Shown piece by piece: positions 12,350-34,860 of a stretch of DNA of 44,165 bases; the stretch's first letter is position 1, and each line of letters opens with the position of its first letter. The position numbers and the translations under genes are program-made. This stretch comes from Alphaproteobacteria bacterium (lineage in GTDB: Bacteria; Pseudomonadota; Alphaproteobacteria; Caulobacterales; Hyphomonadaceae): contig WGLW01000001.1 of assembly GCA_016125405.1 (NCBI GenBank), positions 1 to 44,165 of the forward strand, written 5' to 3'. The notes under the pieces were generated by a model, which was not told the DNA's origin, did no database searches, and saw nothing but the letters and a program-made list of their open reading frames with translations.

Positions 12350-13053
12350 GTGACTGAGGGGGGAGCGCGCGTTGCGCGCGGGTTAATCGCTGCCGCGGGC
12401 GCCGTGGCGGGAGCCGGGCAGGCGTTCGCCGGAGCTTGGGTGCAGGTTCCGGGGCATGCCAGCAGATCACTGACATATGGCGGGAGCGCGGCGATTTTGG
12501 CGAGACGTGGCACACCGACGTCTACGGCGAATACGGGCTCGCGAAAAACTGGGGCGGGACGCTCAAGCTGGACACGCAAATTCGCGAAGACCAGAACTAT
12601 GACGATCGCACATCGATGGAAGCAGGGCTTCAGCGCTCTTTCGCCATGAGCCCGCGCAGCGTCATTGCGATCAGCGCGTCTGTGCTTGCGGGGGAAGCGC
12701 TGGAAGGCCCGGAATGCCGGGGAACGGGATATGAGACCCGGGCTGGCTATGGCCGCTCGGCCAGCCTTGGCGGCCACAACGCGTTCGTGAATGTCGAGGC
12801 GGCGTTCCGGTCTCGCGGGTCCGATTGCGAACGCAATCTGGTCGAGGTTGCAGCCGGTGTGGACCTCACGCCAAAGCTTCACACCATTCTCAAGGCGTGG
12901 TCCGAAACGGGCGACAAGGCGCGCTCGGCGAAGATCGAGACTGACCTGCTCTACGACATCGGCAAGTACAGCGCCGGTATTGGATATCGTCAGGAAGTTT
13001 CCAACGCCTTCGACGAGAGCGGCATTGTCATTGCTGTGTGGCGGCGGTTTTAG
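12350..13053 (+). pseudogene. Outer-membrane beta-barrel-like protein, apparently frameshifted
   Basis: A signal peptide (GTG at 12350; ARVARGLIAAAGAVAGAG then AFAGAWVQVPGHA) is read in frame 2. The rest of the protein (QQITDIWRERGDFGETWH to the end at 13053) is read in frame 1. One extra base near 12459-12461 (GCC|AGCAG instead of GCCCAGCAG) would join them into about 235 residues. The mature part has alternating beta-strand patterns (DVYGEYGLAKNWGGTLKLD, AFVNVEAAFRSRG) and ends in VWRRF, with the terminal Phe typical of outer-membrane barrels. It is either a recent frameshift or a sequencing error. It lies 23 bp after the aldolase gene and overlaps the convergent cytochrome gene by 26 bp. 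Confidence 0.65.
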
Positions 13054-13519
13054 CCGCGTCGGCATTTTCCGATGCAATCATCAGGTAAGCGATTACATCC
13101 CGCCGGTCATTGGCGTCGTCGAGGCCGTTGAAGAACATCTTGGTGCCGGGCATGTAGTCCTTGGGCTTGGCGAGCCATTTATCGAGTTCGGCGCCCGTCC
13201 ACTTCTCGTCCTTGTCGCCCTGCAGGGCTTTCGAATACTTGAAATTCGCCTGCGTCGCCGGATGCCGGTCGAAGACACCATGAAGGTTCGGGCCGGTCTT
13301 GTTGCCCTCGGATGGCACGACCGAATGGCAATTGCGGCATTTGATGAAGATGGTCTGCCCGTTTGCGATATCCGCTTCGTTGTACGGCGGCGGCAGATCC
13401 GCCTTGGTGAGAATCTTTCCACCGGCTGCGGACGCGCCGGCCGTTCCCTCAGGTTTTGAACCACAGGCGGCGAGCGCCATGCAGACGGCAATAACGGCTG
13501 CAAATTGAAGTTTCGCCAA
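13028..13519 (-). CDS. Cytochrome c lipoprotein (class I, c2-like)
   Basis: 163 residues from a TTG at 13519, with GGAG 7 bases upstream. This start gives a lipoprotein signal (FAAVIAVCMALAAC, Cys at about 19). The haem site is CRNCH (61-65), followed by GNKTGPNLHGVFDR and a Met ligand in DYMPGTKMFF (Met123 or Met128). This is the order of a class I cytochrome c. It would be anchored to the membrane on the periplasmic side and carry electrons between a dehydrogenase and an oxidase. No oxidase genes are nearby. It is divergent from pgi. Confidence 0.88.
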   Translation of the reverse strand: MAKLQFAAVIAVCMALAACGSKPEGTAGASAAGGKILTKADLPPPYNEADIANGQTIFIKCRNCHSVVPSEGNKTGPNLHGVFDRHPATQANFKYSKALQGDKDEKWTGAELDKWLAKPKDYMPGTKMFFNGLDDANDRRDVIAYLMIASENADAAKTAATQQ

Positions 13520-13663
13520 TGTACCACTCCGAATGACGCATCCCAGACGTGACTGGGCTCTCGGTGCTCTGTTACATCCCACGATGCAACGCTTTGGGCC
13601 GGGCCGCCCGCCGGCCCGTTGTATGTCTCGCAGTCCACGGCATTCCGCAAGGGAATTGTATAC

Positions 13664-17415: not shown

Positions 17416-17417
17416 GG

Positions 17418-20400: not shown

Positions 20401-22331
20401 TGCGACGCGCCGCCTTCGAAGTCCGGCTTGACGCCTAGGTAGCGGTCGTTCGGGCGATAGGCGATGCGGATGTCGTCGCGCACGGGCCGCCCGCCGGGTT
20501 CGATGGCGCTCACCACGGCGCGAAGCCGTAGCGGATGCGAACTGTCTGCCTGGGATTGCCGGGGATCGATCACCAGCATCGCGTTTCCGGATCCATCGGT
20601 CGTTTCCGTTGGAAGGTCGAAGGTCAATTCGCGGAACGTCTCGTCCGAACGACCGAAATCGTACCCCTTCAAGGCGGAGAACGGGTTGGGATCGGGCTCA
20701 ACCCGCACATTGGTTTCCACAGGCAGGCCTGCGCCCGGCGCGCCATAGAGAAAGCGCACGTTGGCGTTGATCGTCCGCGTCTGTCCCCGCGCCAGCGGCG
20801 TATCCGTGTCAGCCTTGAGGTCGAGCTTGATGCGCTGCGGCACAAAGTCTTCGACAGTGAAGCCGACGCTGCCCACCTGGCCAACGCCATCCACCAGCGC
20901 CGCCATGCGCCAGGGCCCGCGTGCAGCAGCCTTTGGCAGGGTGAAGTCGAACCGGGTCGCGCCGGCTTCCGTGGCTTTCTCGAAGCGCTGGCGTCCGGCT
21001 TCCAGGCCATTGGGCCCATAGACCACCAGCGCACCCGGACGGTTGTCGATAGCGTTCGCAGCCGGATCACGGATCAGCGCTGTCGCCCTGACGGTCTCAC
21101 CCGGACGATAGACGCCTCGCTCGGTATAGACGAAGGCATCCGCAACATGCGCGGGATCGCGCCCGCCGACGTCACGGTCGGTGAGGTCGACCGGCGTGCG
21201 GTCGAGATCGAGCATGGTGAAATCGCCATTGTCCGCATAGGCCGTCAGCATCTTCGGCGAAGAGCTGTCGGCGCCGTGCATCACGGGTCCGGAGAACTGG
21301 ACATGCCCCGCAGCGTCGGTTTCACCACGGGCGAGGATGTCGTTGTTGTGGGCGACCAGCTCCAGCTTGACGCCGCGCATCGGTTTGGCCGTCTGCAGCG
21401 AGCGCACGGTGGCGGACATGCCGTCGAGGCCGGAATACGTCGTCAGGGCGAGGTCGGTGATGATCAGCCAGCGCTTGGCGTGCGCCCCTTGGTCCGGTTC
21501 CTTGCCAGCCTTGTTGAGCTGGTCGATCTCCACGAAATAGGCGCCGGGCTGAAGTTTCGGCACGGCGGTGGCGATCGGGAATACGGTCGTGGTCGCCACA
21601 TTGGGCGATCCGGTCGTATCCATTGTCCCGGTCCAGAGCTTTTCGGCCACATCGTCGGCGTTTGAGCCGTAATCCATGTAGCCGTAGCTGCCGGCCGCCG
21701 CCGAATAGCCGCTCGTGATCGTCTTGAAGGCCAGCGCGCGGTCGGTGATGCGCGAGATCGTTACCCGGACCTTTTCGACATTCACGGTCTGAATGCCAAG
21801 GCCATCGGCGTCGATGCGGGGCAGGATCACGCCATCGCCGTTGAACCCGACATAGGCGGGCCGGTCGCCGAACTCGACATCGACCGTTTCATCGAATGTC
21901 AGCGACCGCCCATCCGCTGCAGGCAGGCCCGAGCGAAGTGTCAATTCGTGGGGTGCGCCAAAGGTAAGTCCGCCCACGCACAGGTTTGCGCCATCGACAG
22001 ACAACGCGATCGGGGCGCTTGGCGAAATGGCGACGAAAGGCTTGTAGTCCTTCTGCGGGTCCAGTGTGGAGTTGAAGATCAGGCAGGCGCGGGGAAGGTC
22101 CTTGGATACGTCAATCGTGTAACGGACGAAGGAGAAATCCCTCGACGTGACCTCGCCCGAGCGCTTGGCGTTGGCCGGGCGGAGCGAGAGCTGGGGCCCG
22201 GTAGCCTTGTCGTTGACAACCTGGGCTTCGGGCGGATTGTCGGCCGGCCGGCCGCAACTGGCAAGGGTTAGAGACGCGAGGCCGGCGGCCACGATTACGG
22301 GCAGCACGCGCCAGAATGACTTCGTCCCCAC
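17418..22331 (-). CDS. Bacterial alpha-2-macroglobulin lipoprotein (YfhM-like)
   Basis: 1,637 residues from the GTG at 22331, preferred over the in-frame GTG at 22352 because AGGGAG precedes it at good spacing. The signal ends in LTLASC, a lipobox, so the protein is tethered on the periplasmic side. MG-type beta domains fill the N-terminal part (for example YTERGVYRPGETVRATALIR). The thioester motif YPYGCTEQ lies near residue 1,172, followed by the alpha-helical thioester domain. The bait-trap model (protease cleavage, thioester attack, entrapment) follows from the family. Encoded directly upstream of pbpC, it probably protects the periplasm when the wall is breached. Confidence 0.95.
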   Translation of the reverse strand: MGTKSFWRVLPVIVAAGLASLTLASCGRPADNPPEAQVVNDKATGPQLSLRPANAKRSGEVTSRDFSFVRYTIDVSKDLPRACLIFNSTLDPQKDYKPFVAISPSAPIALSVDGANLCVGGLTFGAPHELTLRSGLPAADGRSLTFDETVDVEFGDRPAYVGFNGDGVILPRIDADGLGIQTVNVEKVRVTISRITDRALAFKTITSGYSAAAGSYGYMDYGSNADDVAEKLWTGTMDTTGSPNVATTTVFPIATAVPKLQPGAYFVEIDQLNKAGKEPDQGAHAKRWLIITDLALTTYSGLDGMSATVRSLQTAKPMRGVKLELVAHNNDILARGETDAAGHVQFSGPVMHGADSSSPKMLTAYADNGDFTMLDLDRTPVDLTDRDVGGRDPAHVADAFVYTERGVYRPGETVRATALIRDPAANAIDNRPGALVVYGPNGLEAGRQRFEKATEAGATRFDFTLPKAAARGPWRMAALVDGVGQVGSVGFTVEDFVPQRIKLDLKADTDTPLARGQTRTINANVRFLYGAPGAGLPVETNVRVEPDPNPFSALKGYDFGRSDETFRELTFDLPTETTDGSGNAMLVIDPRQSQADSSHPLRLRAVVSAIEPGGRPVRDDIRIAYRPNDRYLGVKPDFEGGASQEGKPATFDLVSVDRTGAQMSGSVNWRLVRIDYKYDWYRADGGQWQWRSTRKLVDIQEGQTRIPAGQHATLNTRELDWGDYELLLTEADSGAEASINFASGYGGQASSDVEAPDKVRMSVPDKLPDVGGSIEIGLNPPYAGEAEIVVASDNVILTRTMTVKAEPTKIRLPVTKEWGAGVYVMASVYTPRDAVKRPKPRRAVGVAHVSVDVSPRTFKLTMTAPQVQRPRSKLTIDVSATAGPVKENTYVTVAAVDEGILLLTGFKSPDPVKYFFGKRRLGVDLRDDYGRLLDPNQGAAAAVHQGGDSIGGAGLSVVPTKTVALFSGPVELKNGKATVTIDVPDFNGELRLMAVAWSATGLGSASQPLTVRDPVPTELILPRFLAPGDKAVATITMDNVEGAAGQYAAAIASTGPFTTSTPNISARLSTGQRQDLSAPVSSSAEGVSNVTMAVTGPNNFSVTHSYGIQTRSPYLPASYVERRILQPGQSWTPDTSAMASFVPGSGYTQISFSPIPMDAAALFDSLDQYPYGCTEQIVSRAMPLLYADQMAALAGRKSSSEIKTQIQEAISTLLNRQGSDGAIGLWRVGDEEATPWLGAYATDFLARAKSLGYVVPDAALDKAYDALETFTVRENTYGAGYDFRVYESKYNPDTRKLLLDRSIAYGAYVLARAGRMDKSRLRYLHDERLSRIPSALARAQIGTALYMIGDNSRAKSAFDQAERALGYENAGDYYATKRRDLAGVLALAAEAKMQDRVTRLSARVSQDLPEPDRLTTQEKAFLLLAANALSGGQAAVNVQVSGVADQVTAGRVFKLTDIEARTPPSFTNRGSGQVWVTSIARGSPIDAPRPVSDGMAMNKQMWTPDGRAINGSSFNQGDRVIIGITVKSSQERTTPLIIADLLPAGFEIEAVLRPEDAGKTGPYAFLGDVAVPNVAEARDDRFVAAIDLYDRDPVTLAYVVRAVTPGTFAMPGAVAEDMYRPDTFARTSAQQITVAGK

Positions 22332-22510
22332 GACGATCTCCCTCTTCCCCACCCATCCCTGAACAGGCGTTCACCCTATCTGACCTGTAATGCCAAGGGG
22401 AAGGGCAGGAACATGGCGAACTGGTGCGCCTCGCCACAGGAACATGGCATTTCGCCGCCGCGCCGCAGGGCCGGCTCGCCACGACCGGCAACATCAATCG
22501 ATCCACAGGC

Positions 22511-23621: not shown

Positions 23622-25241
23622 CTAGCCGTGGCTGACGGCGCGACCATAGGCTTCCTGCTGAGAACCGAACGCCAGCATCGTCTTGCGCTGTTCGGAGCGG
23701 GGATCGTCCAGCATCTTGCTGGTGTCATTTATGATCATCGTGGGTCGCGATTTCGAATCGTAGGGCGTCCATTCTGGAATCCCGGGCGCGCTGGGCACGC
23801 CATTGCGTGCAAAGTTGGCCCAGAGCGCAGAAACCTGATCGGCCAGATGCCGCGATTCCGGCGTGACCGGTCCCGCGATGACCGCCCCGTTCTTGAGGCT
23901 ATCGAATACGAACGGAATTTCCTCCGCGTGGGGCGCAAAGTACCGGCCGTCATCGACCGGCGTTTCGCGATAGAAGTTGTACATGAATGTGGGTCCGCCA
24001 CCGGCGTCGGCGCGCAGCGCCGCCTGGATGGTGGAATCGAGAAAATAGCTGCGGTCGGTGGCGGCCATGTAAAGCACTTCGGCGTTGCCGCTCTTGGGAT
24101 AGAGCCGGCGGTACATGGCGTAGAGATGTTCGCCTTCGCCGTGCTGCACCTTGTCCAGCCGCTCTTTGAGCTGCTCGTCCGTCAGCGTGTCCATGGCAGG
24201 ATCGACGCCGAGGAAACCCGATTGCTCTGTGCGGCATGTGCCGATCATCACCGGAATATCGCGTGACATGGTCGGCGCGGCGCCGTCGAAGGGTTGGGCG
24301 GGCAGACTGGGCGTACCGGCCACCGGCATCCACTGGGCGCCCGCGCCAGCCGCCTTGCCTTGCACCTTCTGGATATCTTTGAGCGGAACCTGCTGCAGCT
24401 TGTCGACATTCGTCGGTGCGATGTTCAGCGCATCCAGCAGGCGGCGCGCTTTCGCCTCTCCCGTTTCGAGCGTATCGACGCGCAGCTGCGATCCGCTCTG
24501 CACCACCGCTCGTTGATAGAGCCCCTGAGCCGGTGTTGTCGTCAGCACCATCGTCGTCTTGCGTCCGCCGCCGGACTGGCCATGCACCATCACCCGGTCG
24601 GGATCGCCGCCGAAGCGCTCGATGTTGTCCTTCACCCACTTCAGCGCGGCGATGCAATCCAGCGTGCCGTTGTTCGAGCTGTCAGCGTATTTCGGGCTGA
24701 ACGCGCCGAGATGGCAGTAGCCGAAAACGTTCAGGCGGTGATTGATCGTAACGACGACGACATCCTGCTTTCTCGCCACGTTGGTTCCGTCATACCAGGG
24801 CGACGAACCCGATCCGGTCGAAAATCCGCCGCCATGAATCCAGAAGAAGACGGGCCGCTTCTTGTTGTCGAGCGCGGGCGTCCAGACGTTGAGGATCAGG
24901 CAATCCTCGCTCTGTTCTTCCGGTCGTCCCGCATAAAGCTGCGTGTATTTGCTGGGACGGCGCACTACGGGCTCGCCATTGCCTTGCGGCGTCTGCGGGC
25001 CATAGGCGAGGCATTCCTTGACCCCCGTCCACGGCTTGGGCGGCTGAGGCGCCATGAACCGGTTGGCGCCGGTTGTCGTGTCACCGTACGGGATCGCCTT
25101 GAACACGTGCACGCCATTCTGGCTGACGCCGCGCACCTTGCCATAGGCCGTTTCCACGATGGGGCTGGCCTTTGCGAGGGCAGGAAGGGGAAGCAACAGC
25201 GCTCCGCCGGAAGCTATCAGCAGCCTGCGTGAAAGTTGCAT
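23622..25241 (-). CDS. Exported type-B carboxylesterase
   Basis: 539 residues from the ATG at 25241, preceded by GGAAGGA. The N-terminus SRRLLIASGGALLLPLPALA is Tat-like. The alpha/beta-hydrolase core shows FFWIHGGGFSTG (oxyanion hole), SEDCLILNVWTP (a family signature) and VMVHGQSGGG with nucleophile Ser about 223. The elbow is GQSGG rather than the usual GESAG. The His is probably that of PHAEEIPFVF. It would hydrolyse carboxylic esters in the periplasm; substrate unknown. It is the last gene of the minus-strand ester-processing cluster, separated from the previous esterase gene by 226 bp that hold a strong hairpin. Confidence 0.9.
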   Translation of the reverse strand: MQLSRRLLIASGGALLLPLPALAKASPIVETAYGKVRGVSQNGVHVFKAIPYGDTTTGANRFMAPQPPKPWTGVKECLAYGPQTPQGNGEPVVRRPSKYTQLYAGRPEEQSEDCLILNVWTPALDNKKRPVFFWIHGGGFSTGSGSSPWYDGTNVARKQDVVVVTINHRLNVFGYCHLGAFSPKYADSSNNGTLDCIAALKWVKDNIERFGGDPDRVMVHGQSGGGRKTTMVLTTTPAQGLYQRAVVQSGSQLRVDTLETGEAKARRLLDALNIAPTNVDKLQQVPLKDIQKVQGKAAGAGAQWMPVAGTPSLPAQPFDGAAPTMSRDIPVMIGTCRTEQSGFLGVDPAMDTLTDEQLKERLDKVQHGEGEHLYAMYRRLYPKSGNAEVLYMAATDRSYFLDSTIQAALRADAGGGPTFMYNFYRETPVDDGRYFAPHAEEIPFVFDSLKNGAVIAGPVTPESRHLADQVSALWANFARNGVPSAPGIPEWTPYDSKSRPTMIINDTSKMLDDPRSEQRKTMLAFGSQQEAYGRAVSHG

Positions 25242-25352
25242 TGCCTGTTTCCTTCCTGATTTTTTCTTTGCGTCGAGAACACCAGCGACGCCTGGCGGCG
25301 TCAATAATCCATGCGCCATAGGGTCCGCTGGCGTGGCGGTCGATCATAAGTC

Positions 25353-25387
25353 GCGGCCCATCTTTCCGATCCGGAAAAATGGGCCGC
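25353..25387. other. Strong 16-bp stem hairpin between two esterase genes
   Basis: GCGGCCCATCTTTCCG (25353-25368) and CGGAAAAATGGGCCGC (25372-25387) pair at 15 of 16 positions around a 3-base loop. It lies between the stop at 25468 and the start at 25241, both on the minus strand. No T-run follows on either strand, so it may be an attenuator, a processing or stability element, or an operator. A second GC-rich inverted pair (GAGGCGCG with CGCGCCTC) lies just to the right. Confidence 0.5.
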
Positions 25388-25467
25388 AAGGTGAAGAGGC
25401 GCGCTGACGAATCGGCTGCGTCCAACGCGCCTCTCGGGTCTTCTTTCCGGTTCCCCCGCCTTCCCCG

Positions 25468-26865
25468 TCAGCGACCGGATGGCCCGTTAGGTATGGTCTT
25501 CGATTTCACCACTTTCGGCGTTGCGCCAAACTCCATCGCCTGGTCGCCGGCGTTGGTGTAGGCTGGCCAGATGACGCCGTCGGCGCATGTGAACGATTTC
25601 GCCTTCGGATCCATCTTGTAGAAGGCGTCCCAGCAGGAGTTCACCTTCTTCGCCATTGCGCGGTCAGCCTCATCCGCCTTGCCGGAAGCGCTGGCGGCCC
25701 AGCTCGACGTGTCAATCGAGTTGAAGGCGAACATAAGTTCGGCGGAGTGAATCGCGCCCTTCGTCCATTCGGTTTTCCGGAAGGACGGAACATAGGCGAA
25801 GTGATAGAGCCAGGCGCCGGCGCCCGTGTCACCCGCTTTGCTGGCGATGGTGCGGGCGGCGTCGAAGCCCGGCTCGCCGCTGTTCGAGCCGATCAGCACC
25901 GGCACGTCAGTCTCTGTTCCAGCGTTGAGGGCGTCGACCGTGGAGGTCGTGATGAACTTGCCGTCGACAGGCGGGCTGAAGCCGCGCTGCGTCGCCTTGT
26001 TGGCCACGAGTGTTTGCGCGGAGATCGACCGCAACTGCGCCGCCGTGGCGTCTTTCCCGGGAAGCCCCAGCGCGGTCGCCGCCTTGGCGCCGTCCTCTTC
26101 CGCCTTCGCTTCCGGAATGCCGGGCCGCAGGAGAGCGCCGGATTCGACGACGGCTTTCTCGAACAATCCCTTGGCGGACGGGATCGACAGCAGGTTCACC
26201 ACCACCGCGGCGCCGGCCGACTGGCCCGCGACCGTGATGTTGTTCGGATCGCCTCCAAAGGCCGCGGCGTTCCGCTTGGCCCATTGCAGGGCGGCGACGG
26301 CGTCCATCAGCGCAAACCCGCCGGTCTCTCCGCCTTCCTTGGTAAGAGCGGGATGCGAGAATGTGCCCAGCGAGCCAAGGCGGTAGTTGATGGGGATCGT
26401 GATCACGCCGTTCTTGGCGTTGCCGGTTCCGTTGTACGAGCCGAGATGACCGGCGCCGAGGAATGACGCGCCGCCATAAAGCCAGACGACCACCGGCGCC
26501 TTCTTGGCGTTCGCCGGCGCATAGACGTTGAGATAGAGGCAGTCTTCGGACTGCACGCCCGCCACGCCGCCGCCGTTTGAGGTTTTCTGGTCGATGTTCA
26601 CGGGTTGCGGGCAGGGCGGCTCGAAGGCAACTGCGGCGCGTTCGCCCGGCCACTTGTCCGGTTTCTGGGGCGCCTTCCAGCGAAGATCGCCGACCGGAGG
26701 CTTGGCGAAAGGCACGCCCCGGAAGACGTTCACCCCGTCCGAGGATTCTCCGACCAGGACGCCGGTGTCGATCGTGGCCTTCACCGGCGTCGGAGCCGGC
26801 TCCTGCGCGACTGCCGGCGCTAGCATGGTTGCGGCCAGCAGCAATCCCATCGCGTAACGGGTCAT
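25468..26865 (-). CDS. Exported type-B carboxylesterase
   Basis: 465 residues from the ATG at 26865, 7 bases after a GGGAGGGA site (ATG 26868 is equally possible). Signal peptide MGLLLAATMLAPAVAQ. Core motifs: NVFRGVPFAKPPVGDLRW, SEDCLYLNVYAP, VVVWLYGGASFLG (an oxyanion loop with YGGAS in place of HGGG) and ITVAGQSAGAAVV with Ser about 216. Glu in SNSGEPGFD and His in IHSAELMFAFN complete a plausible triad. It is periplasmic or secreted, substrate unknown. It follows the VOC gene by about 64 bp and belongs to the DUF1592/DUF1552 run. Confidence 0.9.
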   Translation of the reverse strand: MTRYAMGLLLAATMLAPAVAQEPAPTPVKATIDTGVLVGESSDGVNVFRGVPFAKPPVGDLRWKAPQKPDKWPGERAAVAFEPPCPQPVNIDQKTSNGGGVAGVQSEDCLYLNVYAPANAKKAPVVVWLYGGASFLGAGHLGSYNGTGNAKNGVITIPINYRLGSLGTFSHPALTKEGGETGGFALMDAVAALQWAKRNAAAFGGDPNNITVAGQSAGAAVVVNLLSIPSAKGLFEKAVVESGALLRPGIPEAKAEEDGAKAATALGLPGKDATAAQLRSISAQTLVANKATQRGFSPPVDGKFITTSTVDALNAGTETDVPVLIGSNSGEPGFDAARTIASKAGDTGAGAWLYHFAYVPSFRKTEWTKGAIHSAELMFAFNSIDTSSWAASASGKADEADRAMAKKVNSCWDAFYKMDPKAKSFTCADGVIWPAYTNAGDQAMEFGATPKVVKSKTIPNGPSGR

Positions 26866-26929
26866 CATACTCCCTCCCATCCTCGCAGGTATCTTCCTGC
26901 TGAGTTTGTTTTCGGTCGGCGCGCGACGC

Positions 26930-27412
26930 CTAGGGCTTCGCCGCCGGACGTTGATACAGTTCGATCGTGTACCCGTCAGGGTCTTTCACGATGTTGGTTC
27001 CGTCAACGATCTTTGCCGGCGGATAACCTGCCGCGGCCAACCGCTCGGCCATCTTGCGGCCGCTCGGCACCACCAGCACGATCCGCCCAAACCGCGTCGC
27101 ATCGGGCACGACATCGCCTTGGCTGAGCACGATCAGAGTGTCGGCCTGCGTGTTTCCCGACATGCCGAGCAGGTACTCGACGATCTGGCCGGATTTGTTC
27201 GGCACCTTGGCGTCGATCTGGAGGCCCAGAACTTCGGTGTAGAACTTCACCGAGCGTTCCAGGTTCGAAACCCTGAGGCCAAGACCGGAAACCCGGATGG
27301 GCTTCACGTCTTCCGTCAGCGGGGGCGGCGAGGTCGTGGCCTGTGCGTGGGCAGCCGGGCAGGCGGCGGCCGCAACCATAACCGCGAGTGCGGCCAACAT
27401 GCGATGTGTCAC
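26930..27412 (-). CDS. Exported VOC-fold (glyoxalase-like) protein
   Basis: 160 residues from the GTG at 27412, with GGAG 9 bases upstream. Signal peptide MLAALAVMVAAAACPAAHAQ. One VOC module follows: VSGLGLRVSNLERSVKFYTEVLGL, then FGRIVLVVPSGRKMAERLAAAGY, then DPDGYTIELYQRP. In glyoxalase-type enzymes the first and third metal ligands are usually His (H.xLRV and GHxAxxV); here these positions read Gly and Arg, although the last Glu in IELY is kept. Metal binding is therefore doubtful. Export is unusual for this fold. It lies 16 bp after the 428-residue protein gene, so the two are co-transcribed. Confidence 0.8.
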   Translation of the reverse strand: MTHRMLAALAVMVAAAACPAAHAQATTSPPPLTEDVKPIRVSGLGLRVSNLERSVKFYTEVLGLQIDAKVPNKSGQIVEYLLGMSGNTQADTLIVLSQGDVVPDATRFGRIVLVVPSGRKMAERLAAAGYPPAKIVDGTNIVKDPDGYTIELYQRPAAKP

Positions 27413-27428
27413 GTTTTGATGCTCCGGG

Positions 27429-28715
27429 CTATTTGCGGCCGCTCGCAGGCGCCGCCGATGCGGCTTCGGAAACCTTGGCGGGAACCGGATAGACCTTGAG
27501 AGACTCGCCGAACGGAACCTTCGGGTCCGGCACGAGTCCGTCCACGACATAGATCTTCTTCTTTTCCGGCGGCTCCTTGGACGCCATCGCCTTGTATGAC
27601 GTGACTTCGGTCACCTGCTTGCTGGCGTCCGGCGTCATCACGAAGGCCGGGATGGCGTCGACCCGCTCGGCATATGAGATGTGGGTTTTCTCGCCGCCCG
27701 GTCCGGTCGGGCTGTAGTCCGCGCTGCGCTTCAGGGCGTAGTAGACGTCCGGCAGGCGCACCCAGGTGAGAGACTCAATCACCGGCCCCCGGGCCCTGAC
27801 CCAGCCATCGTAAACCGGCTTCCACGGCCGGTAGCCGCCAACATAGCCTTTCAGCGAGCCGTCCTTTTCCATCGTCAGGCTGACGCGGGCCCTCAAGAGC
27901 TGCAGCTCGCCTGTATAGCTGGGATCGCGCAACCACACTTCGTCGGCCGCCGTCCTCGACGTGATCACGCCGTCCTTCGTCTGGGCCTTGAACAGCGCTT
28001 CGAATTTTGCATCCGGCTTGATGCGGAACGTGTAGTCGCGAGCGATCTCGCCATTGCCGTCCTTCACCAGCTTGTCGCCGCTCATGTAGAAGCCGACGTC
28101 GACAGCCTTGTCGTTCATCGGATCGTCGCCCTTGCCGGCGACCACGATGACGACCGTCCACGCGCCCTCGCGCATCGAATCGTTGAAGGTCAGCGCTCCG
28201 CTGGAGAGGCGAGGCGGTCCGCGATAGGTCTTCCAGCAGCCCAGCGTTTTGTAGAACGTGTTGTCGATGCCTTTTTCGCCGGTCGGGCTGACGAAGCCGG
28301 TGGACGTGTCGCCGTCGAGGTTGATGCCCTCGGAGATCTTTCCCGACACGCCCACGAGGCCGTAGTCCTTGGTCGTCTCGGGGTGGATATAGACGTTCGC
28401 GCGGCCCTCGCCACGGAAGGCCATCTGGTTCTGGCCGTGCACCGGGCTGCGGCTTGGGTTTGCCGGGTCGCGAAGCCATTTTGCCTCGGCAGGCGTATAG
28501 CCTGCATCTTCCAGCAGCTTCACTTGATCGATCTCCGGGTTGGTGCCCTTCGGGCAGTCCGTCCCCGGGTCGGTGACGCCGGTCTTGGCCCCGTAGTACA
28601 TCGCCGCTTCATTCCATTCGACGACATAGGTTTTCGACCATTCCGCCGAAGCGGCGCCGCAGAAGCCGACCAGCGCTGCGGTCGTCGCGGCCAGTTCAAT
28701 CAGCCGGCGCTTCAT
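27429..28715 (-). CDS. Exported protein of unknown function, co-encoded with DUF1592/DUF1552 genes
   Basis: 428 residues. Signal peptide KRRLIELAATTAALVGFCGAASAEW; GAGGGGGAAAG precedes the ATG. I recognise no family. Visible features: PGTDCPKGTNPE near residue 53 and LGCWKTYRGPPR, which give two cysteines in the mature part; LSSGALTFNDSMREGAWTVVI; many Tyr/Trp-rich beta-like stretches (LKGYVGGYRPWKPVYDGW); and a conserved-looking DVYYALKRSADY. The C-terminus is Lys/Glu/Pro-rich and then Ala-rich. It starts 11 bp after the DUF1552 stop and ends 16 bp before the VOC start, so it is a core member of this operon and probably works with those proteins in the periplasm. Confidence 0.75.
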   Translation of the reverse strand: MKRRLIELAATTAALVGFCGAASAEWSKTYVVEWNEAAMYYGAKTGVTDPGTDCPKGTNPEIDQVKLLEDAGYTPAEAKWLRDPANPSRSPVHGQNQMAFRGEGRANVYIHPETTKDYGLVGVSGKISEGINLDGDTSTGFVSPTGEKGIDNTFYKTLGCWKTYRGPPRLSSGALTFNDSMREGAWTVVIVVAGKGDDPMNDKAVDVGFYMSGDKLVKDGNGEIARDYTFRIKPDAKFEALFKAQTKDGVITSRTAADEVWLRDPSYTGELQLLRARVSLTMEKDGSLKGYVGGYRPWKPVYDGWVRARGPVIESLTWVRLPDVYYALKRSADYSPTGPGGEKTHISYAERVDAIPAFVMTPDASKQVTEVTSYKAMASKEPPEKKKIYVVDGLVPDPKVPFGESLKVYPVPAKVSEAASAAPASGRK

Positions 28716-28726
28716 CTCTTTCCCCC

Positions 28727-30076
28727 TCAGGCCATGACTTCGGTGATCGGGCGCGACGTCTTCATGGCGCCCGTGCCGAACTCGCCGACCGGCGCGCCGA
28801 TGATCTGCTGCGCGGTCAGCGAAACGCGCGTGACGGATTCGCCTTCGCTCGAAATGTGCTGGCCCGCCTTGTGGCGTCCGCCCGCGCCGCCGGCGAGCAG
28901 CATCGGGATGTTCTCCAGCGAGTGGATTTTGGCGTAGCCCGTGTCGCTGAAGCCCATGATGAGGGAGTTGTCGAGCAACGTGCCGTCGCCTTCCTTCACC
29001 GCGTCCATTTCGGCGAGGAAGTCTCCGAAGCCTTGCATGACCATTCCGGCGAGCTTGCTGCTCATCGGCTGGTAGCCGAGCTTGGCGTCCGTCGGCTCGT
29101 CATGCGTGTACTGGTGATAGATCTTGGAATCGCCCGCGATATAGGTTTCCGAGGCCCCGGGCGTGTGCACGCAGTTGAAGACGCGCGTCTGGTTGCAGGC
29201 CATCGCCATCGCGAGCAGCTTCGCCATCGCCTTGTTGTTTTCGTTGACCACGTCGATCGAGGCCGACTTCTTGGCTTCGCCGGGGCGGCCCGGGACGACG
29301 CAGGCTTCGCACTTCTCCGGCTTCTGCAACTGAAGTTCGAGCTGGTTTTCCATCTCGCGGACCGACGTGAAGTATTGGTCGAGCTTCACCTTGTCCGCCG
29401 TGCCGACGTCCGCCATCAGCGCCTGGCGCTGGTCTGTCACCGCCGACAGGATGCTCTGCTTGAGCATGACTTTCGGATCGGGTTTCCAGTTCGGGTTGTT
29501 GGGGTCCTGGAAGCCTTCGCCATAGATGCGTTCGTAGAGTGAAACCGGCGTGATTTCCGGGGTCGAGAAGCTCTTGCCGGTGCGGGTCGAATAGCTGAGC
29601 GCCTTGCCGGAGGGCGAAATATCGATCGACTTGAAGCGGCTCGATGAGCCGATCGCGTCGGCGATGCGCGTATCGAAGGAGGGGCCGTCGAACGAGCCCG
29701 TGACTGCCGGCGCGATGCCCGACAGGATCGACGCGTGGCCGCTCCAGTGCACGACGTTGGGCCGGCCGTCGCCGATCGCACGGAAACCGGAGAAGACCGA
29801 AACCTTGTCCTTCACCGGCGCGAGCGACGCCAGCTCGGGCGTGATCTCGTAGCCCGGGCCCTTCTTTGTGGGCACCCAGCGCGTTCCGCCCGTGGGCGTG
29901 TCGGTCAGGCCAAGCCCCCAGAAGTAGGTGCCGAAGCGCACCGGCAGCTTGGTGCCATCGGCCCAGGCCTTGCCGTTCACATCCAGGAAGATGTCGAGGG
30001 CGGGCAGTCCAAGTCCGACCCCGGCGCCGCCCAGCAGGCCGCGGAGCATCGAACGACGGTTGAAACGCAGAGACAT
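28727..30076 (-). CDS. DUF1552 protein with Tat-type signal
   Basis: 449 residues, GGAGG upstream. The N-terminus NRRSMLRGLLGGAGVGLGLPAL is a twin-arginine signal, so it is probably exported folded. The body follows the DUF1552 pattern: RFGTYFWGLGL, PEVKDKVSVFSGF-like LAPVKDKVSVFSGFRA, VVHWSGHASIL, and LLDNSLIMGFSDTGYAKIHSLENIPMLLAG, which resembles the C-terminal part of the alkaline-phosphatase-like DUF1501/1552 group. CEACVVPG is a CxxC pair. The function of the family is not established; it is nearly always next to a DUF1592 gene, as here (22 bp apart). Confidence 0.88.
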   Translation of the reverse strand: MSLRFNRRSMLRGLLGGAGVGLGLPALDIFLDVNGKAWADGTKLPVRFGTYFWGLGLTDTPTGGTRWVPTKKGPGYEITPELASLAPVKDKVSVFSGFRAIGDGRPNVVHWSGHASILSGIAPAVTGSFDGPSFDTRIADAIGSSSRFKSIDISPSGKALSYSTRTGKSFSTPEITPVSLYERIYGEGFQDPNNPNWKPDPKVMLKQSILSAVTDQRQALMADVGTADKVKLDQYFTSVREMENQLELQLQKPEKCEACVVPGRPGEAKKSASIDVVNENNKAMAKLLAMAMACNQTRVFNCVHTPGASETYIAGDSKIYHQYTHDEPTDAKLGYQPMSSKLAGMVMQGFGDFLAEMDAVKEGDGTLLDNSLIMGFSDTGYAKIHSLENIPMLLAGGAGGRHKAGQHISSEGESVTRVSLTAQQIIGAPVGEFGTGAMKTSRPITEVMA

Positions 30077-30098
30077 GAGATCCTCCGATGCGCGGGTG

Positions 30099-31787
30099 TC
30101 AGCGTGTTGGGCTTGTTGGCGTGTCCGATTGGCTGGCGACCTTGACGCCAGCCGGTATTTTGACGGCGAAGAATTCCGGGCTGGTCGCCATTGCGGTCAG
30201 CAGTGCGGGAACCTGGTATCCTGATTTGGCGAACGCCTCGGTCTCGCGCGCGATATAGGACTGGTCGCGATAGCCCGCTGCACGACCAATGCTGTAGCCG
30301 TAAACCTGTTTCACCAGGCAGGCCGGAACATTGGGATCGTCGTGCATGAATTTGCCGAGGCCCTGCGCGCCCGAGAATTTCACGCCGTCAATGTCGGCGC
30401 TCACATCGATGGGCAGGCCGTTTTCGGTCGTGCGGAGTTGTCCCAGGCCATCAAAGTGCTCAAGCGTCAGGCCGGGCGGATCGCTGCTTTGGTGACAGAT
30501 CGAGCACCCCTCATTGGTCATGTGGTCAATCAGGCGTGTCCGCACGGTTCCGTTCTGGATCGCCTGCACCTTGGAGAAATCCACGTTGGCCGGCGGATCC
30601 GGGGTCGGCTGGCAGGTGAAGATCTCGTGCAGCTTGATCCCGCGGCGCGTCGGCGACGACCGGCCAGGGTGGGAGAACAGCGAGAGGAAAGTGACTTGAG
30701 TGAGAATGCCGGAACGCTCGGACGATTGGGGGAAGGTGTAGCGCGTCCATTCCTGCGAGGAGGCAAACGGCACCTTGTAGATCGACGCGAGGTAGCGATT
30801 GATGAAGGTCTCGTTCGAGGTGAAGATGTCGCGATAGTCGCCTTTCCGATCGATCAGCAGGTCGACAAGGGTCTTCAGCGTCTGTTCGCGCGCTGAATCT
30901 GCGACCGCCTGCGAAAACTTCGGATAGGTGGCCGCGTCCTTGTTAAGGCTTTCGAACTGGTCGAACTGCAGCATGTCGGTGAAGTAGGCGCGCACCCCGT
31001 CATCAAGGCGCGGCGACGCGGCGAGGCGCGCAACCTGCTTGTTCAATCCCGCGGGCGTTTGAAGGTCGCCGCTCGTGGCTGCGGCCAGCAGTTCGGCGTC
31101 CGGCGCGGTATCCCAGAAGAGGAAAGAGAGACGCGTCGCCTTGCTGTAGGCGTCCAGGCGGTATTGTCCGGGCGAGGCAGGGTCAGGCTCCGCCGTCTCC
31201 GTGCGGAACAGGAATTCGGGCGCAAGCAGCAAGCTCGTCAGCGAAAGCTGAAGACCAGAATAGAAGTCATGCGCCAGCGTCGCGCCGCGCTCTGCTGTCG
31301 TCAGCCGCGCAGATATCTCTCCCTCAGTGAGCGGACGACGGAACAGTTTTTGGCCGACCGTCGAGATGAATTCCCGGGCGCATTTGGCGTCGGGCTTGCC
31401 GGGGTCCGCCGGCTTGCATCCGATCTGCGTGTCACGCGATTTCGGGTCCATCACCTGTTCGGAAATGGATCCCCCGAGCGCGAAATACTGCTCAAGACCA
31501 GACGTTGTCACCGACAGGTCCGTGCTGCCAATCGCCAGAAGGCCGTCCTGGCGCCGCTCCGGCTCGAAGCGGGCGTTCACCTTGATATCAGGCCCGAAGA
31601 TGTCCGCGATCGTATGGCGGTACTGGCTTTCGGTGATTCTGCGTACGGCCGTCGTCACCGTGGCGGGCGGTTTCGCCTTCGGCGTTTTGGCGAGGGCAGG
31701 GTCGCCCAGTCCGCCCGCAAACAGAGTCGCGCCCGCGAGCGCAAGGCTGGCCGCCCCCGCGCAGGTAAATGCCCGAAATCGTCGCAA
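30099..31787 (-). CDS. DUF1587/1595/1592/1588/1585 multidomain exported protein
   Basis: 562 residues from a TTG at 31787. This start has GGGAG 7 bases upstream, gives a signal peptide (RRFRAFTCAGAASLALAGAT, then DPALAK) and lies about 50 bases after a good promoter; longer in-frame starts would lie at or upstream of that promoter. Domains in order: DUF1587 (VRRITESQYRHTIADIFG), DUF1595 (FISTVGQKLFRRPLTEGE), DUF1592 (ATRLSFLFWDTAPDAELL), DUF1588 (GILTQVTFLSLFSHPGRSSP through CSICHQSSDPPGLTLEHFD) and DUF1585 (CLVKQVYGYSIGRAAG). CSICH at 428-432 is a CxxCH haem-c-type motif. The family is best known from Planctomycetes; its biochemical role is unknown. Confidence 0.88.
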   Translation of the reverse strand: MRRFRAFTCAGAASLALAGATLFAGGLGDPALAKTPKAKPPATVTTAVRRITESQYRHTIADIFGPDIKVNARFEPERRQDGLLAIGSTDLSVTTSGLEQYFALGGSISEQVMDPKSRDTQIGCKPADPGKPDAKCAREFISTVGQKLFRRPLTEGEISARLTTAERGATLAHDFYSGLQLSLTSLLLAPEFLFRTETAEPDPASPGQYRLDAYSKATRLSFLFWDTAPDAELLAAATSGDLQTPAGLNKQVARLAASPRLDDGVRAYFTDMLQFDQFESLNKDAATYPKFSQAVADSAREQTLKTLVDLLIDRKGDYRDIFTSNETFINRYLASIYKVPFASSQEWTRYTFPQSSERSGILTQVTFLSLFSHPGRSSPTRRGIKLHEIFTCQPTPDPPANVDFSKVQAIQNGTVRTRLIDHMTNEGCSICHQSSDPPGLTLEHFDGLGQLRTTENGLPIDVSADIDGVKFSGAQGLGKFMHDDPNVPACLVKQVYGYSIGRAAGYRDQSYIARETEAFAKSGYQVPALLTAMATSPEFFAVKIPAGVKVASQSDTPTSPTR

Positions 31788-31844
31788 ATCCTCACTCCCA
31801 GGACAGAACTGCCCGTCTCCGGTCTCGCGCCGGAGCATTAAATG

Positions 31845-31873
31845 ACTAGAGCGCCATTTTTGTTTGCGGTCAA
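31845..31873 (-). promoter_or_regulatory. Sigma70-like promoter of the DUF1592-DUF1552 operon
   Basis: On the minus strand, TTGACC (31873-31868) and TCTAGT (31850-31845) are spaced by exactly 17 bases. Transcription would begin near 31838, leaving a leader of about 50 bases before the TTG start at 31787. The -35 overlaps the inverted repeats at 31862-31899. Confidence 0.6.
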
Positions 31874-31899
31874 CATAGACTGCAAACCCGGGTGCAGTC
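31862..31899. promoter_or_regulatory. Candidate TetR operator array (two overlapping inverted repeats)
   Basis: GTTTGCGGT (31862-31870) and ACTGCAAAC (31879-31887) match at 8 of 9 positions with an 8-base spacer. The right arm is shared with a second pair, GACTGCA (31878-31884) and TGCAGTC (31893-31899), a perfect match, also with an 8-base spacer. The array overlaps the -35 of the DUF1592 operon and lies about 110 bp upstream of the divergent TetR gene, so repression by that regulator is the simplest reading. Confidence 0.55.
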
Positions 31900-31983
31900 C
31901 GGCTCCCCCGCCAATTGATCGCCCTTGAGCGCAAATCCCGACAGGTTAGAAGGCGTTAGCGTCGCGCGGCCCTGCACGCGGCG

Positions 31984-31996
31984 GCAGTCGAACTGC
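31984..31996. promoter_or_regulatory. Second candidate TetR site, next to the tetR start
   Basis: GCAGT-CGA-ACTGC is a perfect inverted repeat that carries the same ACTGC core as the array at 31862-31899. It ends 10 bp before the ATG at 32007, so binding here would fit autoregulation. The short spacer differs from the other sites, so it may be only one half-site plus chance symmetry. Confidence 0.35.
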
Positions 31997-32006
31997 AGAT
32001 AACAGA

Positions 32007-32693
32007 ATGGCGATTGTGAGCGACCGGCGTACCCCCTCGAAGTCCAGCGGCAAATCCGGCGCAAACGCCGCGACCGTCCGCGGCCCGCACGCCAAGCGCT
32101 CGGCCGCGATGCGTGTCCGCGTGATCGATGCGGCCATCGACTGTCTCACCCGGCTTGGCTACAGCGCGACCACCCTCCAGGTCGTCATCGATACCGCAGG
32201 GGTAAGCCGGGGCGCCGTGCTTCACCACTTTCCGACGCGCGTGGACCTGATGATCGCCGTCGCCGAATACGCCGCCGGCAAACAGAACCGTCAGGTCGCC
32301 CGGCTGTTGGCCGATACCGTGCCGGGGATGGATCGTTTCGTGGCGCTTACCATGGCGACCTGGGACGCCATGGTTCGCCCTCCGTCAATCGCTCTCATCG
32401 AGATCATGATGGGATCGCGCAGCGACCCGGAGCTGGGCGCGCGGTTTCCCGCCGTGCACGAGGCGCTCGAGAGATACCAGCGCGAAGGCGTCTGGGAGAC
32501 GGCCAAGGAAGCCGGCATCACGGACAAGGCGTCGATCGAGGCGATGATCCATCTTCACAACGCGGCGATGCGGGGCCTTGTGCTGGACCTGATGTACTCC
32601 AAGGACCGCAAGCGCACCGATAGCGCCATGAAGCTCCTGCTGCGCTACAAGAAACAGCTGGCGGCCGATCTAACGAAGAAGTCTTCGAAGTAA
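32007..32693 (+). CDS. TetR-family transcriptional regulator
   Basis: 228 residues. After a Ser/Lys/Gly-rich N-terminal tail of about 34 residues comes the TetR helix-turn-helix: RVIDAAIDCLTRLGYSATTLQVVIDTAGVSRGAVLHHFPTRVDL is split here as VIDAAIDCLTRLGYSATTL and then AGVSRGAVLHHFPTRVDLM. The C-terminal helices form the ligand and dimer domain. The start is uncertain: no ribosome-binding site is visible before ATG 32007, and GTG 32016 is also possible. It is divergent from the DUF1592-DUF1552 operon across inverted repeats and is followed after about 100 bp by the CocE/NonD hydrolase, so it probably controls both arms. Confidence 0.88.
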   Translation: MAIVSDRRTPSKSSGKSGANAATVRGPHAKRSAAMRVRVIDAAIDCLTRLGYSATTLQVVIDTAGVSRGAVLHHFPTRVDLMIAVAEYAAGKQNRQVARLLADTVPGMDRFVALTMATWDAMVRPPSIALIEIMMGSRSDPELGARFPAVHEALERYQREGVWETAKEAGITDKASIEAMIHLHNAAMRGLVLDLMYSKDRKRTDSAMKLLLRYKKQLAADLTKKSSK

Positions 32694-32793
32694 TCCGCCC
32701 CGGACCGGGCCCTCCGCCCGCTGCGCCCATCGACAGCCAAACGCCCGATTGTAAAATCGACGCGTTCGGCGCCAGTTCAGGACCCATCCAGTC

Positions 32794-34860
32794 TTGCGAC
32801 ATTCCCTAACGTCCGTGCGTCCGGGCTCCACCCGCCGCAGCGTCCTGGCGAGCGGCCTGTCGGCGCCTCTGTTTGCTGCCTGTACGCAAACCCCGCACTC
32901 CGGCTGGAAGATGCCGCCGGAACAGCCTTACCGGATCGTCGAACACACCTGGATTCCGATGCGCGACAATGTCCGGCTTTCGGCGCGCATGTGGATACCC
33001 GAGGGCGGCTCTCCATCGCCTGCCGTTCTGGAGAGCATCCCCTATCGCAAGCGCGACCTGTACCGCCCCTATGACGATATCTGGGGAAAGGCGCTGGCCG
33101 CCGCCGGGATTGCCTTTGTCCGCGTCGACGTACGCGGCTCGGGAGACTCCGAAGGGGTCATGACCGACGAATACTCCGAGAACGAATTGCGCGATTGCGT
33201 CGAGGCGATCGCGTGGATCGCCAGCCAGCCCTGGTGCACGGGCGCGGTCGGCATGCGGGGCATTTCCTGGGGCGGCATCAACACGCTTCAGGTCGCCGCG
33301 CGACGCCCGCCCGAACTCAAGGCGATCGTGTCGATGGGAACCTGCGACCGGCGCTACACCGATGACGCACATTATATCGGAGGCAGCCTGGGGCGGACCA
33401 ATTTCCAGTGGGGCGTTCTCTTCAAGACGGTGATGGCCGGACCGCCCGACCCGGAAATCGTCGGGCCCGCCTGGCGCGACATGTGGCGCAAACGCCTCGA
33501 GGCGACGCCGCCCATCCTTACGACCTGGACGCAGCATCAGCGCGAGGACGCCTACTGGCGCCGCGGCTCGGTGGCCGAGGATTATACCTCGATCGATGTC
33601 CCGGCGCTGCTGGTCAGCGGATGGAGCGACACCTATTGCGTGCCGGTCCTCCGGCTGCTTGCCAGGCTCAAGAGTCCGGCGAGAGCATTGGTCGGTCCAT
33701 GGGGCCACACCTATCCCTACACGGCGCAACCCGTCGGCCTCGCATGGGCGCAGGAAGAGGTCCGCTGGTGGCGTCACTGGCTCGTCGGCGAACCGACGGG
33801 GTTCATGGCTGAACCCGCGCTGCGCGCCTTCATGCCCTATGCGACCGCCGCGGAAGCGCGCGGCAAGCCCATTCCCGGCCGCTGGGTCGCCGAACGCCAC
33901 TGGCCGCCGAAACGCGCCCATCGCCGGTTTTTCCTGAACGCCGGTTCGCTCGACGCCACGGCGGCTCCGCCGGTCATCGTCACGCACAACGACAAGGGCG
34001 TCGTTGGCACGACAAAGCCGGAGTGGCTGGATCGCCTGCCCATCGAGCAGTCGTATGACGACAAGCGCTCGACCGTCTTCGACAGCGCGGCGCTCGAAGC
34101 GCCGCTGGAAATTCTCGGATCGCCGGTTGTTCGTCTCAGGATTTCGTCGGACCAGCCGGTTGCGAAGGTGGCGCTGAGGCTCACCGAAGTGCGACCCGAC
34201 GGCTCAAGCCGGCTGGTGACCTGGGCGGTGCTGAACCTGACGCGCAGAAACTCCATGTCAGAGCCAGAGGCGCTTTCGCCGGGCAAGGCCTATGAGGTCC
34301 CTGTAACGCTGCGGACGATCGCCCACAGGTTCAGCGCGGGCTCGCGCATACGGCTGGCGCTTTCTGAAGCGCTGTGGCCAATGGTCTGGCCATCGCCCGT
34401 GCGGCCGACGCTTCATATCGAAACCGGCGTCTCGCATCTCGATCTGCCCGTGCGCATCGCCGAACGGCAGGCCCCGCCGTTTCCGGTTGATGAAGTCCGC
34501 TCTCAGGCGGAGCCGCCGCCCGTCTACGAACCCGGTTCGGCCGACGCCAGCGGCAGGATCAAGCTCATCAATGATGCGCCGTATTCTTCCTATCGTATCG
34601 ACGGCGCCGACGTTGAACTCTCCTCCGAGCGCGAAGAGGTTTGCGAGATCGACGAGACTGGACCGGGCCAGTCGCTCTGGCGCCAGCGCGTCCGGTCCGG
34701 CTGGCGCCGCGACGGATGGAATTGCGAGGTGGAGGCGTCCTACCAGCTTGAAGCCGACGCCGGAAATTTCCGGCTCAGCGAAACGCTCAAGGCCAGCGAG
34801 AATGGCAAGGAGACGTTTACGCGCACGTCCGAAACCGCCATCCCGCGAGACCTCATTTAG
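32794..34860 (+). CDS. Exported CocE/NonD-type serine hydrolase (X-Pro dipeptidyl-peptidase S15 fold)
   Basis: 688 residues from a TTG at 32794 (GTG 32815 is an alternative; neither has a strong site). The N-terminus STRRSVLASGLSAPLFAAC is a Tat-like signal with a lipobox-like Cys. The triad is visible: Ser158 in MRGISWGG, Asp279 in VSGWSDTYC and His305 in GPWGHTYP. RVDVRGSGDSEG is a family hallmark, and a C-terminal jelly-roll domain follows (SPVVRLRISSDQPVAKV). Members include cocaine esterase, alpha-amino-acid ester hydrolases and acylases; the substrate is unknown here. Its place after tetR links it to the ester cluster. Confidence 0.9.
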   Translation: MRHSLTSVRPGSTRRSVLASGLSAPLFAACTQTPHSGWKMPPEQPYRIVEHTWIPMRDNVRLSARMWIPEGGSPSPAVLESIPYRKRDLYRPYDDIWGKALAAAGIAFVRVDVRGSGDSEGVMTDEYSENELRDCVEAIAWIASQPWCTGAVGMRGISWGGINTLQVAARRPPELKAIVSMGTCDRRYTDDAHYIGGSLGRTNFQWGVLFKTVMAGPPDPEIVGPAWRDMWRKRLEATPPILTTWTQHQREDAYWRRGSVAEDYTSIDVPALLVSGWSDTYCVPVLRLLARLKSPARALVGPWGHTYPYTAQPVGLAWAQEEVRWWRHWLVGEPTGFMAEPALRAFMPYATAAEARGKPIPGRWVAERHWPPKRAHRRFFLNAGSLDATAAPPVIVTHNDKGVVGTTKPEWLDRLPIEQSYDDKRSTVFDSAALEAPLEILGSPVVRLRISSDQPVAKVALRLTEVRPDGSSRLVTWAVLNLTRRNSMSEPEALSPGKAYEVPVTLRTIAHRFSAGSRIRLALSEALWPMVWPSPVRPTLHIETGVSHLDLPVRIAERQAPPFPVDEVRSQAEPPPVYEPGSADASGRIKLINDAPYSSYRIDGADVELSSEREEVCEIDETGPGQSLWRQRVRSGWRRDGWNCEVEASYQLEADAGNFRLSETLKASENGKETFTRTSETAIPRDLI

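Follow-up and report, generated by a model that had tools for sequence, protein, structure and literature searches.

The DNA analysed here is a stretch of 44,165 nucleotides (contig WGLW01000001.1 of assembly GCA_016125405.1, a member of the Hyphomonadaceae), referred to below as the window. Between positions 23,622 and 34,860 it encodes a DUF1592-type protein and a DUF1552 protein, an unnamed exported protein of 428 residues (U428), a VOC-fold protein and two carboxylesterases (CE470 and CE565), with a TetR-family regulator and a CocE/NonD-family hydrolase in divergent orientation. An earlier reading of the letters, the sequence-only reading, had taken this block for one exported ester-processing system in which the DUF pair acts as a redox or hydrolytic partner. 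The present analysis adds a conserved third component, U428, and shows that many relatives have dedicated electron carriers; the set so far seen as a pair is a three-protein unit, rare among bacteria, and a candidate for a redox enzyme of a new type, located beyond the inner membrane. The compact proteobacterial cassette narrows the problem of the PSCyt/PSD proteins to three small proteins and candidate carriers; Povalibacter uvarum and Phenylobacterium kunshanense are among the isolates that have it.

Gene content of the locus

All eight genes, six on the minus strand and two divergent, were found in a check of the open reading frames (ORFs) of the window, and Pfam and NCBIfam agreed with the family labels given earlier; the start sites shifted slightly and were corrected by eye from start codons and Shine-Dalgarno-like sequence (Table 1). 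The frame of the DUF1592 protein (30099-31934(-)) opens at 31934, and the TTG at 31787 is its likeliest start, not 31838. With corrected starts, DUF1592 and DUF1552 are separated by 22 nt, and the gaps that follow measure 11 nt before U428, 16 nt before the VOC gene, 61 nt before CE470 and 226 nt before CE565. Because of this last gap, co-transcription of CE565 with the upstream genes is doubtful, and it possibly forms a separate unit. Promoter- and terminator-like sites in the window showed no excess over shuffled sequence.

Export signals, called by eye without a signal-peptide program, bear out the claim of an exported multi-gene system: Sec-like signals in DUF1592, U428, VOC and CE470, twin-arginine signals in DUF1552 and CE565, and a twin-arginine signal plus lipobox in the CocE protein. 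All five domains of the DUF1592 protein exceed their Pfam cut-offs, and the DUF1552 protein scored 143.7 bits against PF07586 (cut-off 30). In the VOC protein, inspected by eye for the canonical metal-binding His/Glu residues, Gly stands at the first His position and the C-terminal Glu is kept. The host genome measures 3.86 Mb, and PF07631 was matched once in the whole of it.

Table 1. Features of the locus in window coordinates, with starts as corrected here
Feature	Position	Strand	Basis and remarks
DUF1592-type protein (PSD3-PSD5-PSD4-PSCyt3-PSD2), short form	30099..31787	-	Pfam
DUF1552 (HXXSHH family) protein, twin-arginine signal, variant motif HxxTHDE	28727..30076	-	Pfam
U428, unnamed exported 428-residue protein, third core component	27429..28715	-	ORF, homologues
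VOC-fold protein, exported	26930..27412	-	Pfam; likely start GTG 27412, not 27550
CE470, exported carboxylesterase (COesterase)	25468..26868	-	Pfam; start ~26868
CE565, second exported carboxylesterase, outside conserved core	23622..25241	-	Pfam; start ATG 25241
TetR-family regulator, divergent	32007..32693	+	Pfam
CocE/NonD-family hydrolase (Peptidase_S15/PepX_C)	32794..34860	+	Pfam; CocE/NonD name from NCBIfam
Operator-like inverted repeat, TTGCGGTC-N6-GACYGCAA core at 31864-31885	31862..31887		Pattern search

A three-gene core in Alpha- and Gammaproteobacteria

Searching named genome contigs for U428 gave 24 loci. They belong to Hyphomonadaceae, Caulobacteraceae, Steroidobacteraceae, Pseudohongiella, SAR86 and other Gammaproteobacteria, and a single one to an unplaced metagenome-assembled genome. 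DUF1592, DUF1552 and U428 lie on the same strand in 21 of these U428-selected loci (frame-broken in L051 and L059); the contigs of L036 and L046 start within DUF1552, and L055 holds U428 alone. For the comparisons below, loci with a U428 close to that of the window were called type 1 (the window, L021 and L036-L059), those with a distant U428 type 2 (L022, L023 and L026-L031), and four sphingomonad plasmids (L114-L117) made up a third set, giving 37 cassette loci: 25 type 1 (the lone L055 excluded), 8 type 2 and 4 plasmid.

Since the named loci had been picked by U428, the reverse view was taken from DUF1592 in 249 genomes of the order, with the U428 and PF07631 searches treated as one and the same draw. 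PF07631 was matched in 15 genomes. Eleven of them hold a short DUF1592 (open frame of 562-618 residues), and all eleven have U428 nearby, adjoining the DUF pair in ten and located about 1.6 kb away, between profile hits, in L029. None of the four genomes with long DUF1592 only (16 copies, 811-1105 residues) matched U428. U428 itself was found in 12 of the 249 genomes, among them G167, which has seven copies, a DUF1552 at a contig end and no DUF1592 hit. In a sample of 398 genomes of the phylum, U428 occurs in at least two (the window's genome and G001), a lower bound from at most four first-look candidates scored per genome among the matches listed; DUF1592 occurs in seven, and in the other five its frames run to 858-2371 residues and come without a U428 match.

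The recurrence of the triad in Alpha- and Gammaproteobacteria means that the core linkage exceeds chance. Alpha- and gammaproteobacterial copies of U428 are 55-72% identical. Type-2 U428 proteins are 22-25% identical to that of the window, so the association of the three genes is ancient. No conserved neighbourhood at all would have spoken against the sequence-only reading; what was found is a conserved core of DUF1592, DUF1552 and U428, to which VOC (profile hits in 13/37 cassette loci) and CE470 are companions in some loci. A CE470 homologue (≥600 bits) is present in 8/37 loci and missing from 29/37; the window copy is 70-74% identical to those at four Steroidobacteraceae cassettes. Both companions recur at type-1 and type-2 cores alike.

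Conservation does not reach the whole block, and the idea that it works as one system is not supported. The CocE gene was rejected as part of the core, having no homologue at E 1e-8 in the examined flanks of the 24 named loci, and so was CE565, whose best matches are 38-42% identical and confined to L038, L039 and L042.

The window U428 was unmatched in Pfam, NCBIfam and a PDB sequence search, and 27 U428 members gave just three isolated weak hits (best E 0.027) and no PDB profile match. Its model has a predicted local distance difference test (pLDDT) score of 70 with a confident, beta-rich core; Cys54 and Cys160 are invariant across 23 aligned rows. A second U428 stands in tandem in the Ponticaulis cassettes L044, L045, L046 and L054 (56-64% identical to that of the window), and at L025:1708-11982 (G167) two lone U428 genes flank a GDSL esterase and a TonB receptor, near a GH106 alpha-L-rhamnosidase.

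U428 goes with one clade of DUF1552. In a tree of 52 DUF1552 rows, a branch supported at 99/100 sets apart the 34 labelled U428-type; the label was assigned by set and includes L065 (G167), which has no adjoining U428, and the non-U428-type rows carry a long-branch warning. The motif HxxTH[D/E] occurs in 38/38 U428-type rows (25/25 type 1, 9/9 type 2 including L065, 4/4 plasmid) and HxxSH in 17/18 others; in place of the family signature HxxSHH, the window protein has HxxTHDE. By this motif, the window-type DUF1552 represents a variant subfamily. His321, His325 and His385 are invariant in 48/48 rows. A pooled DUF1552 profile compared by hhalign reached 67% to sulfatases, in an alignment confined to the C-terminal part of DUF1552, and 73% to DUF1501, over 91-101 columns; DUF1501 itself reached 49% to sulfatases, and six comparisons involving U428 or DUF1592 stayed below 1%. 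On profile similarity, DUF1552 is treated here as a likely but putative member of the alkaline-phosphatase/sulfatase superfamily.

Haem motif and electron carriers

The window DUF1592 protein has a single CxxCH (CSICH), in PSCyt3. This motif is kept in 22/22 type-1 rows and in the 9/9 readable rows of 16 long DUF1592 proteins, and is expected to carry a c-type haem.

Carriers lie in or beside the operon in 22/37 cassette loci: 10/25 type 1, 8/8 type 2 and 4/4 plasmid. They comprise high-potential iron-sulfur protein (HiPIP), cytochrome c', cytochrome b561, class I cytochrome c, a triheme cytochrome and a pyrroloquinoline quinone (PQQ) dehydrogenase with a cytochrome domain. Profiles built from cassette members and searched on 44 loci (825,765 bases, E 1e-5) placed cytochrome c' in 16 loci, HiPIP in 12 and b561 in 7, none farther than 1.2 kb from a core gene; Steroidobacteraceae (L037, L039, L040, L041) and Ponticaulis (L046) are among the loci hit. 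A few weaker matches (E 0.009-0.5) fell at other places, and the window holds two of these. The seven lone-U428 loci (L024, L025, L032-L035, L055) gave no carrier-profile match. Proteins with a CxxCH at a greater distance from the core (e.g. L048, L049) were excluded from the count.

The arrangements differ between lineages. Type-2 cores are flanked by cytochrome c' and by a HiPIP-like protein that bears a Tat-like signal. In the type-1 loci L037 and L039 the HiPIPs exceed the Pfam cut-off. The four sphingomonad plasmids carry cytochrome c' and b561 (annotated in three, unannotated in L116). In L038, L043 and L051 (frame-broken in L051) a divergently oriented gene encodes a class I cytochrome c. 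At L042:6621-8603 one reading frame joins a homologue of this cytochrome to the N-terminal end of DUF1592, and in L029 a triheme cytochrome overlaps the DUF1592 start by 4 nt. In L021 the PQQ dehydrogenase with a cytochrome domain lies 48 nt upstream of DUF1592, within an operon-like series (L021:9357-17049, G190) of an unknown 383-residue protein, this dehydrogenase, DUF1592, DUF1552 and U428.

Long relatives offer a parallel. A DUF1552 gene adjoins each of the long or giant DUF1592 genes of L183, L184, L185 and L186, whose products hold two to four CxxCH; in L184 (Pfam run on three of the four) a PQQ-type GSDH domain and a cytochrome are fused to DUF1592, together with CBM26 modules. From the domain order in L183, L184 and L186, the module known as X132 would correspond to DUF1595-1592-1588-1585. 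Cbp2D of Cellvibrio japonicus and TERTU_2913 and TERTU_3803 of Teredinibacter turnerae are described as exported proteins that combine a DUF1587-type domain (a TERTU figure legend prints DUF1687) and a CxxCH-bearing X132, like the window protein, with cytochrome modules and, in TERTU_3803, a PQQ-dehydrogenase-like module, and electron transfer was proposed for them. The long and giant proteins of L183-L186 resemble them in domain make-up. According to the papers on them, X183 is a cytochrome, X132 holds a further CxxCH and its function is not known (PMC8981238, PMC10916295, PMC12542752), and its authors were aware of no structurally or functionally characterised homologue (PMC10916295). In Cbp2D the X183 cytochrome is joined to a YceI-like (ubiquinone-type) domain, and it was studied as a donor (PMC8981238); one X183 reduced a lytic polysaccharide monooxygenase (LPMO) slowly (PMC10916295), and in 2025 the growth of C. 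japonicus deletion strains led the authors to hypothesise cellulose cutting by Cbp2D/E beyond electron transfer (PMC12542752).

Unlike the window protein, which by Pfam is the X132-like part alone, without fused cytochrome or carbohydrate-binding module (CBM), Cbp2D, TERTU_2913 and TERTU_3803 are large and multidomain, with CBMs in Cbp2D and TERTU_3803, and no U428 is described in the text available. The compact cassette looks like an X132-DUF1552 core with its electron supply encoded separately. Planctomycete PSCyt/PSD proteins (DUF1592 family) and long DUF1592-DUF1552 pairs, the latter also seen in L183-L186, have the same Pfam domains as the cassette; the cassette differs from them in its short DUF1592, its HxxTH[DE] DUF1552 and U428 as third component. 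PSCyt/PSD proteins are reported to be frequent in some Verrucomicrobia genomes and wholly without known function (PMC5615132). DUF1800-DUF1501 pairs are an analogous exported pair of different families, which are reported to accompany chitin synthase genes in some bacteria (PMC5122149); besides the DUF1501 likeness of DUF1552, the window DUF1592 protein gave a sub-threshold DUF1800 hit. In the literature text searched, no paper named DUF1592 together with DUF1552, and none assigning a function to the pair was found. One genome of the order sample (G223, 3.2 Mb) has eleven long DUF1592 and eight DUF1552 matches, a Planctomycete-like expansion.

Proposed role, regulation and substrate

A redox role of the core is well supported, and of the two partner roles earlier offered for the DUF pair the carriers favour this one; the carrier linkage places the hydrolase-only reading of the pair second. 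On balance we think it probable that the cassette encodes a three-protein exported redox enzyme with an electron-consuming core, fed by a carrier and acting on a hydrophobic substrate. Electrons would pass from the carrier through the DUF1592 haem to DUF1552, which, rich in His, may be the catalytic metal-binding subunit. U428, the companion of one DUF1552 clade, would most likely be a substrate-binding or specificity subunit. The donor would be whatever carrier each lineage recruited, the core may be oxygenase- or reductase-like, and a co-encoded esterase could handle product or precursor. In the window, the cassette would rely on a carrier encoded elsewhere, under the divergent TetR. A bolder version, in which DUF1552 is a new oxygen-activating metallo-oxygenase family on an alkaline-phosphatase-like fold, with DUF1592 as haem reductase and U428 as specificity subunit, we hold to be rather unlikely. 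If true, this would be an exported oxygenase that resembles an LPMO but is directed at hydrophobic natural products; esterases would cleave what it has oxidised, and its electron supply would have been swapped repeatedly in evolution.

Several observations weigh against the carrier-fed redox enzyme. The profile search found no carrier within the window cassette, and 14 kb separate it from the nearest class I cytochrome c of the related kind; a search for HiPIP in the window's genome gave no hit at E 0.001, and 15/25 type-1 loci lack a carrier, of which L036, L047, L053 and L059 are contig-cut or broken. The profiles had been trained on some of their own hits (7/16 for cytochrome c', 3/12 for HiPIP, 3/7 for b561, 3/5 for class I), and the HiPIPs of L031 and L022 score 20.6 and 20.1 bits in Pfam, just below the cut-off of 22. 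Haem occupancy of DUF1592 is predicted from its motif. The type-1 DUF1552 profile alone reached 31% to sulfatases and 0.7% to DUF1501, and the DUF1552 AlphaFold model (20 close homologues) had a pLDDT of 31 and was not used, so that the fold assignment rests on hhalign with the pooled profile. For U428, Foldseek returned nothing at E 0.001 (best 0.094), and no fold is claimed. Isolated X183 domains of T. turnerae are reported to have given no electrons to its LPMO (PMC10916295).

The direction of flow could also be the reverse. With b561, HiPIP or cytochrome c' as partner, electrons might run backwards, and a periplasmic dehydrogenase that oxidises the substrate (e.g. an alcohol) and passes electrons out to these carriers and the respiratory chain would suit the carriers beside the core equally well; an aldehyde-dehydrogenase gene (Pfam) and an alcohol-dehydrogenase-like gene (by eye) in the Ponticaulis flanks, and acyl-CoA dehydrogenase genes in other cassette flanks, fit it too. 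PQQ dehydrogenases release electrons. Since those adjacent to DUF1592 (L021) or fused to it (L184) are themselves electron sources, and since the Cbp2D cytochrome described above was studied as a donor, flow into the core is likely and the reading of the core as a dehydrogenase unlikely.

Another reading sees in the locus a mobile catabolic island: the redox cassette would be one module and the esterases another, transferred jointly but not dependent on each other. The patchy spread of U428 in the order, the megaplasmid copies, the identity between alpha- and gammaproteobacterial U428 and the unconserved CE565 and CocE agree with it, but VOC and CE470 beside both types of core, and the tight order and spacing of the core itself, do not, and we consider it quite unlikely. 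Least probable is a hydrolytic system, with DUF1552 as a hydrolase of the alkaline-phosphatase superfamily that acts alongside exported esterases, and with a structural or sensory role for the haem protein: the sulfatase likeness, CE470 and the TonB receptors and esterases of the flanks would suit it, but the sulfatase alignment is C-terminal, most loci lack CE470, and dedicated carriers and an in-frame cytochrome fusion are poorly explained by hydrolysis.

Local TetR control, as earlier proposed, gains from L038, where a TetR 70% identical to that of the window also lies beside the cassette. The core pattern TTGCGGTC-N6-GACYGCAA, which was derived from these two loci themselves, has a single occurrence each in the window and in L038 (5932-5953), in both immediately before DUF1592, with the same spacing and one mismatch to the palindrome. 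With three mismatches allowed, shuffled sequences matched in 35/100 cases (window) and 15/200 (L038), so that position and recurrence, not count, carry the argument. The cassette may thus be controlled by the divergent TetR through this putative operator.

The probable substrate is a natural product, bulky and hydrophobic, which TonB receptors would take up. An ester or amide in it may be opened, as the sequence-only reading suggested. Annotation covered 93 of 165 type-1 flank ORFs, hand-picked and de-duplicated; among the families listed (25 of 95), TonB, TetR, esterase and acyl-CoA genes occur, and no single substrate pathway was found among these ORFs as listed. Ten flank proteins of the Sphingobium TomTYG64 plasmid were compared with NCBIfam, and steroid-catabolism models were matched, all below their cut-offs. 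The Tom... names of the Sphingobium plasmid strains suggest tomato, and another strain is named for herbicide use. Sphingobium is reported to be enriched by and to degrade steroidal saponins (PMC10653915); the main text of that paper lacks the terms cytochrome, DUF, hypothetical and TonB, and the one TomTYG strain name looked for is absent from it. From the neighbours of the lone U428 genes in G167 and from these plasmid strains, a hydrophobic ester or glycoside is a doubtful guess at the substrate.

Some smaller observations remain. The type-2 loci L023 and L026 lie near CoA-transferase-like genes (by eye), and L030 near MmgE/PrpD and amidohydrolase genes (Pfam). The class I cytochrome c at 13031-13537 (-) of the window, lipoprotein-like by eye and 14 kb from the cassette, is kin to cassette carriers, and the window's genome has five cytochrome c' matches, four above the cut-off, all on other contigs. 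At 15259-22352 (-), a penicillin-binding protein with a PBP C-terminal domain adjoins a bacterial alpha-2-macroglobulin, an ordinary pair.

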